Below are positions 9,547 to 11,194 of a stretch of 38,962 bases of DNA, piece after piece; positions within the stretch are counted from its first letter, which is position 1, and the number at the start of each line of letters is the position of its first letter. The stretch is from a virus. The stretch lies in IMG/VR virus record IMGVR_UViG_3300046000_006906, positions 1 through 38,962 of that record; one strand, 5' to 3'. Under the pieces are notes generated by a model, which saw only the letters and a program-made list of their open reading frames with translations, searched no databases and had not been told where the DNA came from. The position numbers were made by a program, and so were the translations under genes.

Positions 9547-9941
9547 ACGCCGGACCTGACACCACAGACATTGCCGCACACGCGGTGGGTATCGGCGCAG
9601 CCGATGAACCAAAAGGACAAGCAATGACCAACCCTGATGAACTGGAAAGGCTGGCGAGGGCTGCGATTGCCGTTCACGGCGCGGAGTGGGTCGAGTTTTT
9701 CAACGAGTGGGAGGAAACGTCCGGTGCGTTCGGTCGTGCAGCCAATCCCGCGACCATCCTCGATCTCCTCGCAGCCAACCGGAAGATGCGGGAGGCCATC
9801 GAACGGCTGATGGATGCCGAGTTCGCGAAGGACTGGCGAACGTGGTCGGACGAGCGCGCGCGGCTTCTTCTCGGCGTTGGGCCTCGCTTCGACGCCTTCA
9901 TGGAAGCCCGCTCAGCCCTCTCTACGAAGGAGACAACCTAA
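9543..9941 (+). CDS. Hypothetical protein, 132 aa (or 105 aa)
   Basis: Two starts are possible: ATG 9543, overlapping the HNH stop, and ATG 9624, which has AGGA at a good spacing and begins TNPDELERLARAAIAVHGAEW. The second gives the more protein-like sequence; the first 27 residues are low in structure. Helical throughout. The gene ends exactly where the 43-bp repeat and the DNA modification cassette begin. Confidence 0.72.
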   Translation: MNAGPDTTDIAAHAVGIGAADEPKGQAMTNPDELERLARAAIAVHGAEWVEFFNEWEETSGAFGRAANPATILDLLAANRKMREAIERLMDAEFAKDWRTWSDERARLLLGVGPRFDAFMEARSALSTKETT

Positions 9942-9970
9942 TGTCTGATGCAGTTATGGTTCCGAGGGAG
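9928..9970. repeat. 43-bp direct repeat, copy 1 (left edge of queD-dpdA cassette)
   Basis: Identical to 11152-11194. It contains the ribosome site GGAGACAACCTA, the ATG (9941) and the first ten codons, encoding MSDAVMVPRE. Sequences diverge on both sides. The two copies bracket exactly the QueD-like and DpdA-like genes. Confidence 0.97.
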
Positions 9971-10372
9971 GTCCGGGAGGGATCGCTCACCAGTTTCACC
10001 AGCTCGTCGTTTGACGCTAGCCATCGCGGGCCGTTTGCCAATGAGATTCACGGCCACACTTGGTTCGTGGAAATCGGCTGGAAAGGTCCGGCGCATGGGC
10101 CGCGCGTGAATGCCATCGAGATGAAGGCGAAACTGGACGCCTGCCTTGACCAGTGGGACCACAAGGTTCTGGACGACATTATTGAGCCGACCAACGAGGG
10201 CGTTGCGCAAGCCGTTGGTGAACAGATTGCCGGGCTGTCCGAGGTGACGGTCTGGCGCAAGGGGCGTGTCCCGTGTCGGGCGCGTTGGATCAACAACAAT
10301 GAAAGGGGTCAGACGAACGCCCGAGCGCATAGACAAGAGATGGAAACTGATCGGGATGGGGGGTCGCAATGA
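9941..10372 (+). CDS. QueD-like 6-pyruvoyl/6-carboxytetrahydropterin synthase family protein
   Basis: QueD makes the pterin precursor of 7-deazaguanine (preQ0) bases. After ten residues copied from a neighbouring gene (MSDAVMVPRE), this 143-aa protein has the T-fold pattern FTSSSFDASHRG (first zinc His), then IHGHTWFVEIGW (two more zinc His), WDHKVLDDI (Asp-His pair of the active site) and PTNEGVA (pterin-binding Glu). The Cys normally four residues before HGH is Ala here (ANEIHGH), so the usual reaction is doubtful. The basic C-terminal tail (RGQTNARAHRQEME) is unusual. Its stop overlaps the start of the DpdA-like gene, which strongly supports a role in DNA deazaguanylation. No FolE, QueE or QueC gene is visible. 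Confidence 0.8.
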   Translation: MSDAVMVPREVREGSLTSFTSSSFDASHRGPFANEIHGHTWFVEIGWKGPAHGPRVNAIEMKAKLDACLDQWDHKVLDDIIEPTNEGVAQAVGEQIAGLSEVTVWRKGRVPCRARWINNNERGQTNARAHRQEMETDRDGGSQ

Positions 10373-11152
10373 CGGCTCCCCATGTCCTGAGCTTTTATCC
10401 CGGCCTGCACCAGCCGCACGATGCGGTTCACTTCGACCGCGCCTGTATTAGCATCCACCGGCTTGAGACGCGCCGGAAGCCCGTCCCGTGCCTTGATGTA
10501 ATGGTGGACAGCGGAGCCTTCACCAAGCTCGCCAAGCACGGCTGTTATCCCGAGCCGGTTGAGGTCTATGCGCGACAACTGCACCGCCTTTGGACCCAGG
10601 GCGTGGTCAACATCACCATTGCCGCCGCGCAAGACTATATGTGCGAGCCGTTCATGCTGGAAAAGACCGGCCTGACCGTTCTGGACCACCAGCGTCTGAC
10701 TATTGAGCGTTACGATGCTCTGGTCGAGGCGCTGGATGACTTGTTCCCCGGTGGCGTGCCGTTTGAGGTCATGCCCGTCCTTCAGGGCTTCCTGATCTCA
10801 GACTATCTCCGGCACATCGAAATGTACGGCGACCGCCTGACGCCCGGAATGTGGGTTGGCGTTGGCTCCGTCTGTAAGCGCCAAGGAAACGCAGCGGTCA
10901 TTGAAGACCTGTTGCTGGCGATTAAGGGGGCGCGGTCGGACCTCCGGCTGCATGGCTTTCGGCGTGAAACTGACAGCCCTTCAAAGCCCTATCGTGCGCC
11001 GCCTTCTGTTCAGCGCCGACAGTATGGCGTGGTCATTTGCAGCCCGGAAAGCCGGACGAGACTCAAACGACTGGCGCGAGGCCAAGGCCTTCGAGTTGCG
11101 CGCCCTAACCCCATCCAAAGAGCCGGAGCAGTTGAGACTGTTCGCGGCATGA
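10369..11152 (+). CDS. dpdA: DpdA-like DNA transglycosylase, split by a +1 frameshift
   Basis: DpdA proteins resemble tRNA-guanine transglycosylase and exchange guanine in DNA for a 7-deazaguanine. Frame one (10369-10959) gives VMVDSGAFTKLAKHG, IAAAQDYMCEPFM, FEVMPVLQGFLISDYLRH, MWVGVGSVCKRQGN and LRLHGF. The family sequence then continues in the next frame from 10961: GVKLTAL, then LLFSADSMAWSFAARKAGRDSNDW, carrying the SADS Asp expected in the active site, to the stop at 11150-11152. The break is at TTT-C (10957-10960); dropping one base restores a 260-aa protein. Without it, frame one continues as unrelated sequence to 11172. An ATG at 10952 opens the second frame but lacks a ribosome site. 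Sequencing error, mutation or +1 frameshifting are all possible. Confidence 0.8.
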
Positions 11153-11194
11153 GGAGACAACCTAATGTCTGATGCAGTTATGGTTCCGAGGGAG
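11152..11194. repeat. 43-bp direct repeat, copy 2 (right edge of queD-dpdA cassette)
   Basis: Identical to 9928-9970, spanning the ribosome site, ATG (11165) and first ten codons of the following gene. In this copy the ORF goes on as PTEAMIEAA, a very common phage sequence, so this is probably the original and the copy at 9928 the duplicate. Confidence 0.97.

Follow-up and report, generated by a model that had tools for sequence, protein, structure and literature searches.

Putative programmed +1 ribosomal frameshifting in the dpdA gene of a tailed phage

Results

The dpdA gene is divided over two reading frames

The DNA analyzed here (the window) is the 38,962-bp virus record IMGVR_UViG_3300046000_006906, which has a GC content of 63% and probably originates from a temperate tailed phage, because an integrase gene and an SU10-type portal gene were found in it by Pfam search. 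Its dpdA gene, predicted to encode a 7-deazaguanine DNA transglycosylase, is split over two reading frames, and full-length DpdA is most probably produced by programmed +1 ribosomal frameshifting (estimated probability about 80%). Sequence evidence comprises the split, conservation of its position in diverged phages, purifying selection on the +1 part and the fold predicted for the joined product.

Read from the ATG at 10369, the DpdA-like sequence ends in frame 0 with LRLHGF, where Phe197 (TTT at 10957-10959) is the last family-like residue, and it resumes one base later as GVK (bases 10951-10966: CATGGCTTTCGGCGTG). Bases and translations thus agree with the break described in the initial annotation. 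The coding residues of the +1 frame (10961-11149) read GVKLTALQSPIVRRLLFSADSMAWS...QLRLFAA, and when TTTC is taken as one step a single DpdA of 260 amino acids is obtained. Omission of the C after TTT gives HGFGVK, as had been proposed, and this matches the HGFG spacing of in-frame relatives. The unshifted product has 267 amino acids and lacks the last barrel strand and Asp217, in line with the earlier remark that the C-terminal part with the presumed catalytic Asp would be missing from it.

The joined protein was matched by the Pfam family DpdA (PF23859) with 130.6 bits (cut-off 27; E-value 7.5e-38) over residues 29-228, a region that spans the joint. The AlphaFold model of the joined protein is a TGT-like barrel with a pLDDT of 94.2, for which Foldseek returned archaeosine TGT (1iq8), DpdA (7ui4) and TGT (1pud) with E-values of ~1e-7. 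A PDB sequence search with a profile gave no match, and single-sequence AlphaFold gave no useful model. Asp47 and Asp217, which we take to be the equivalents of the TGT catalytic-type residues, are invariant across 74 alignment rows, and Asp217 is present in the joined product only. In the predicted structure, the joint follows the strand formed by residues 193-196, and the next strand (residues 215-218) holds Asp217. Since this strand falls after the joint, the frame-0 product is predicted to be incomplete and could not constitute a complete enzyme. The joined protein is confidently predicted to be a complete TGT-like barrel and, by family match, a DpdA of the TGT superfamily. DpdA of the Sinorhizobium phage phiLM21 and of other phages (PF23859, PHROG 1279) is homologous and shares the motifs HGFG[VIL]K and ADSMAWS with the window; phiLM21 DpdA is 65% identical to the first part, but is encoded in one continuous frame.

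The same codon is stepped in diverged phages

Relatives were gathered from annotated phages, IMG/VR and GTDB genomes, and the frame at the junction was checked by script. HGFG[VIL]K is encoded in one continuous frame, with no additional base, in ~118 of 130 distinct loci; in phiLM21 and RHph_TM3_3_3, for example, both parts abut in one frame at HGFG. Inspection of the same site in relatives, as suggested in the initial annotation, revealed a +1 step at the identical Phe codon in two other phage contigs. L007 (51.9 kb), which over the first part has ~70% DNA identity and 69% amino acid identity to the window, contains CTGCACGGCTTTCGGTGTGAAG, with the extra base at this codon (TTT_C). L185 (48 kb), with 56% amino acid identity before the junction, contains CTGCACGGCTTTTGGGTTGAAG, in which one surplus base follows the same TTT (TTT_T). 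Most other genes of the three phages differ. Because the same codon is stepped in two diverged relatives, the step is judged to lie above chance, and three hits on exactly this codon without a reason would be very unlikely. L006, an IMG/VR contig listed separately, matches the window without a difference over 5519 bp, the shift site included, and may come from the same site or project. Pattern scans of IMG/VR for HGF+N+G[VIL]K recovered L007, L185 and the sequence of the window itself (contig L006/L077) but nothing else, and sampling of bacterial genomes at the level of the relatives' family, order and class yielded no additional +1 case.

In a tree built on the first part, the window, L007, L185, L008 and L202 form one five-member clade (support 98/97), in which three members carry the +1 step and L008 and L202 are in frame. 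Among the records searched, no cultured phage belongs to this clade. Between the motifs ADSMAWS and NDWREA, L185 and L202 both have ~30 additional residues, which fits their pairing in the tree.

Selection acts on the +1 reading

Between the window and L007, the synonymous substitution rate (dS) is near saturation on both sides of the joint (1.88 before and 1.91 after). As dS is equal on the two sides, the C-terminal part does not appear to have been shared recently by recombination. Read in +1, the +1 parts of the two phages have 87% amino acid identity, with proportions of synonymous and nonsynonymous differences (pS and pN) of 0.69 and 0.116 and a ratio of nonsynonymous to synonymous rates (dN/dS) of 0.066, compared with the higher value of 0.131 for the first part. 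The mismatches of the +1 part are distributed over the three codon positions as 10/8/31 against L007 and 5/3/21 against L185. When the same downstream bases are read in frame 0, pN exceeds pS (window versus L007). A pN far below pS in +1 and above it in frame 0 indicates that it is the +1 reading, rather than the frame-0 tail, that has been under selection. The idea that the long open frame 0 reflects selection for two products was discarded, as this frame is open past the +1 stop in 29 of 121 relatives and the tail is unconstrained.

Proposed shift and context of the slip site

In the proposed mechanism, ribosomes would read dpdA from the ATG at 10369 to the UUU of Phe197, where peptidyl-tRNA-Phe occupies the P site and CGG the A site, and the tRNA would then move one base forward onto UUC, which is a better match than UUU for its anticodon GAA. 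GGC would be read next, and translation in the +1 frame to 11149 would yield the 260-residue transglycosylase with both Asp47 and Asp217, whereas non-shifting ribosomes would release the 267-residue product. Re-pairing in the P site would be possible in +1 at all three sites, from UUU_C to UUC in the window and L007 and from UUU_U to UUU in L185. A +1 shift is favored over a -2 shift, since the latter would insert one residue whereas the intact family holds the HGFG spacing exactly. We infer the ribosomal nature of the shift, its efficiency, the part played by an upstream hairpin as stimulator and a low dose of DpdA as the reason for retention of the site.

The window slip site contains no stop codon. 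None of the Shine-Dalgarno-like motifs AGGA, GGAG, GAGG and AGGG occurs within ~20 nt, no signal for a downstream stimulatory structure was obtained, and an Rfam search of the window gave no match. Avoidance of UUU_C was tried as support and abandoned: it is weak in the window (13%, compared with 29% for the other codons of the type NNT_C; p 0.002) and does not occur in the phages of L007 and L185. Because UUU_C alone is common in the genes of these two phages, an additional stimulator is expected. Just upstream of the shift site, the window can form a candidate RNA hairpin of 8 bp (-14.0 kcal/mol), and the hairpins of L007 and L185 have 10 bp, end 3 nt before the UUU and reach -20.9 and -18.3 kcal/mol, respectively. 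In stability the hairpins of L007, L185 and the window rank 1, 2 and 10 among 131 loci, and synonymous-codon randomization matched their stability in 19, 33 and 117 of 5000 cases. L008 and L202, which belong to the clade but are in frame, lack the hairpin. The upstream hairpin is suggestive, and is possibly a stimulator of the +1 shift.

Programmed frameshifting and other explanations

Programmed +1 frameshifting, one of three options raised in the initial annotation, is favored because the site is common to diverged phages, the +1 part evolves under purifying selection and the joined product is predicted to form a full barrel with both Asp residues. Another of these options was that a one-base insertion cost dpdA its C-terminal part, so that DNA modification by the phage has been lost. 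The absence of Asp217 and the last strand from frame 0 would fit a dead gene, as would the in-frame state of the close relative L008, three independent gains being as parsimonious as one. A dead gene is nevertheless unlikely, since the insertion point is identical in three diverged phages, none of them has a further disabling change and the stop position is retained, and since a gene that died long ago would not show a dN/dS of 0.066 at saturated dS. The remaining option was an error of sequencing or assembly in an otherwise intact gene. The whole case does turn on a single base, but TTTCGG is not homopolymeric, L006 carries the same site (with the reservation on its origin given above), and L007 and L185 step at the same codon while ~118 other loci do not; with purifying selection on the +1 part in addition, an error is very improbable.

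The two parts might also be made separately and assemble as a split enzyme. The ATG at 10952, to which the initial annotation had pointed as a start for the second part, does exist in the window, because the His195 codon there is CAT, and it lies in the +1 frame immediately ahead of GVK. However, no Shine-Dalgarno motif precedes it, and in L007 and L185 the His195 codon is CAC, which removes the ATG and leaves a TTG 38 nt upstream (L007) and a TTG 98 nt upstream (L185) as the nearest starts in the +1 frame. There is no nearby frame-0 stop and hence no termination-reinitiation, and a cut at this point would separate the last two strands of the barrel, so that a separate start is quite improbable. 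Slippage of RNA polymerase, by which the frame could be restored in the transcript, is known in bacteria in association with long A or T runs and is probable in another dpdA clade with a run of nine A (see below); at the present site the run is only TTT (TTTT in L185), which is far too short, and this explanation hardly needs to be considered.

Several observations weigh against programmed frameshifting. L008, the sister of the window with 75% identity, has dpdA in frame, as has L202, and three independent gains of the step are as parsimonious as a single gain followed by two losses; should the gains be independent and of recent date, dN/dS would carry less weight. As the phages of L007 and L185 do not avoid UUU_C, it cannot by itself be a strong shift site, and the A-site codon is not rare in the window (CGG, 17 per 1000 codons) and is the ordinary Trp codon (UGG) in L185. 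In the hairpin no pair is changed on both sides, i.e., there is no covariation, synonymous constraint around the site and hairpin is weak (p 0.06 to 0.21), and comparable hairpins occur in some in-frame relatives, so that a stimulator role of the hairpin is a hypothesis. The open frame 0 beyond the +1 stop, common as it is in relatives, is no evidence either.

Comparison with known +1 shift sites

In the PA-X gene of influenza A, a +1 shift occurs at UCC_UUU_CGU, and tRNA-Phe (GAA) has been argued to prefer UUC over UUU (PMC3498833). The claim of the initial annotation that TTT-C is slip-prone through re-pairing of tRNA-Phe on UUC agrees with this mechanism. In plant amalgaviruses a +1 shift has been proposed at UUU_CGN, with all CGN codons in use (PMC5052127). 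Both resemble the shift proposed for the window in that a P-site UUU re-pairs on UUC with CGN in the A site and no stop at the site, but they concern eukaryotic ribosomes and RNA viruses, whereas the window clade consists of bacterial DNA phages and has UUU_UGG in L185. In Mesorhizobium ICEMlSymR7A, a conserved +1 ribosomal shift at UUU fuses two open reading frames (msi172-msi171) into FseA (PMC5009743, PMC10359603). FseA shares with the proposal for the window the shift at UUU, the alphaproteobacterial setting and the formation of one functional protein from two reading frames; it activates transcription, however, and belongs to an integrative element, its site has other flanks, and a WG-encoding motif upstream is suspected there instead of a hairpin. 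On 70S ribosomes, +1 shifting is reported to be promoted by a refolding mRNA hairpin adjacent to the E site, which mimics the internal Shine-Dalgarno sequence of prfB (PMC6321510). As in prfB (RF2), slippage in the window would take place in the P site, with a duplex lying directly ahead of the E site; this duplex is the internal Shine-Dalgarno in prfB and the candidate hairpin here.

Probable recoding in other dpdA genes

In a separate clade, nine distinct IMG/VR loci have an invariant run of nine A (A9) after SMAWSFAAR[MY][EQ] (L330, L332-L340; also L040, L042, L043 and L045). Their conserved C-terminus (KNPNDWREAVKFQNKI...) lies in the -1 frame, with synonymous sites mostly near saturation, and the nearest in-frame relative lacks the run. 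The A9 run is probably a second, independent recoding site, at which either polymerase slippage or ribosomal -1 shifting would operate. The Microcystis phages Mwe-JY25 and Mwe-JY07, which are mutually identical here, have a +1 step at CGGAGG-CGT-CTT_C-TAC before YSADSMAWS (L004:3549-3620, PP438417; L378, PP395639). This site has the layout of prfB, with an internal Shine-Dalgarno, a 3-nt spacer and CUU, and is closer to it than the window site is; the gene is annotated as one hypothetical protein that continues in frame 0. Taken together, the window clade, the A9 loci and the Microcystis phages suggest that recoding is a recurrent feature of phage dpdA.

Two other irregularities were noted. 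In dpdA of a 63.8-kb IMG/VR contig (L347:2543-2640), an in-frame TAG follows SADSMAWCYTA and family sequence resumes behind it, which may reflect a nonsense mutation or TAG recoding. In a chromosomal relative of dpdA (Phenylobacterium haematophilum, L157:3370-3400; L365, L368), the frame changes at a different place, in the middle of the first part, and this change looks sporadic.

A wider reading, which we regard as evenly poised between right and wrong, is that recoding of dpdA arose at least three times and in three different ways: in the window clade as a +1 shift at UUU_Y next to a hairpin on its upstream side, in the Microcystis phages as a +1 shift at GGAGG-CGU-CUU_C, and in the nine loci as a -1 shift at A9. 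Phages would then repeatedly have selected a brake on the dose of an enzyme that exchanges DNA bases, and the window would offer an example from nature of a bacterial +1 shift promoted by an mRNA hairpin next to the E site. In the window the shift would likely serve to keep DpdA scarce.

Programmed frameshifting in phages is known mainly from tail and capsid proteins. No literature on dpdA together with frameshifting was found, and PRFect makes no mention of it. What would be new here is the gene and phage setting for UUU_Y +1 shifting; the mechanism itself is known. If the proposal is true, frameshifting would set the dose of a DNA-modification enzyme used against restriction, and DNA modification would be under-predicted, as automatic annotation labels such split genes truncated or hypothetical. 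The shift site is small and portable, so that recoding of dpdA and hairpin-driven +1 shifting are directly testable.

Gene neighborhood of dpdA

The features in and around dpdA are listed in Table 1. The stop codon of the queD-like gene shares bases with the dpdA start in an ATGA overlap at 10369, and in L008 a queD 62% identical to that of the window is likewise located upstream of dpdA. Searches of the window and of the L007, L185 and L008 records revealed no member of the QueC, radical-SAM (QueE) and FolE families; preQ0 would therefore have to be supplied largely by the host.

Table 1. Positions of dpdA, its shift site and adjoining features in the window.
Feature	Position	Strand	Basis
queD-like gene (PTPS fold)	9941..10372	+	Pfam PF01242, E 1.6e-8
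dpdA frame-0 part, residues 1-197 (MTAPHV...DLRLHGF), with invariant Asp47	10369..10959	+	frame translation; PHROG 1279
Candidate RNA hairpin, 10932-10939 paired with 10944-10951	10932..10951	+	folding; suggestive, without covariation
Putative slip site UUU_C, frame-0 A-site codon CGG	10957..10960	+	same position in L007 (UUU_C) and L185 (UUU_U)
dpdA +1-frame part (GVKLT...LRLFAA), with Asp217 of ADSMAWS; stop 11150-11152	10961..11152	+	translation; dN/dS versus L007; Pfam match across the joint
Frame-0 run-on tail (RRETDSPSK...); stop 11170-11172	10960..11172	+	no family resemblance, no protein-level constraint

An exact direct repeat of 43 nt is present at 9928-9970 and 11152-11194; it spans the ribosome site and opening codons (MSDAVMVPRE) of queD and of the gene that follows dpdA.
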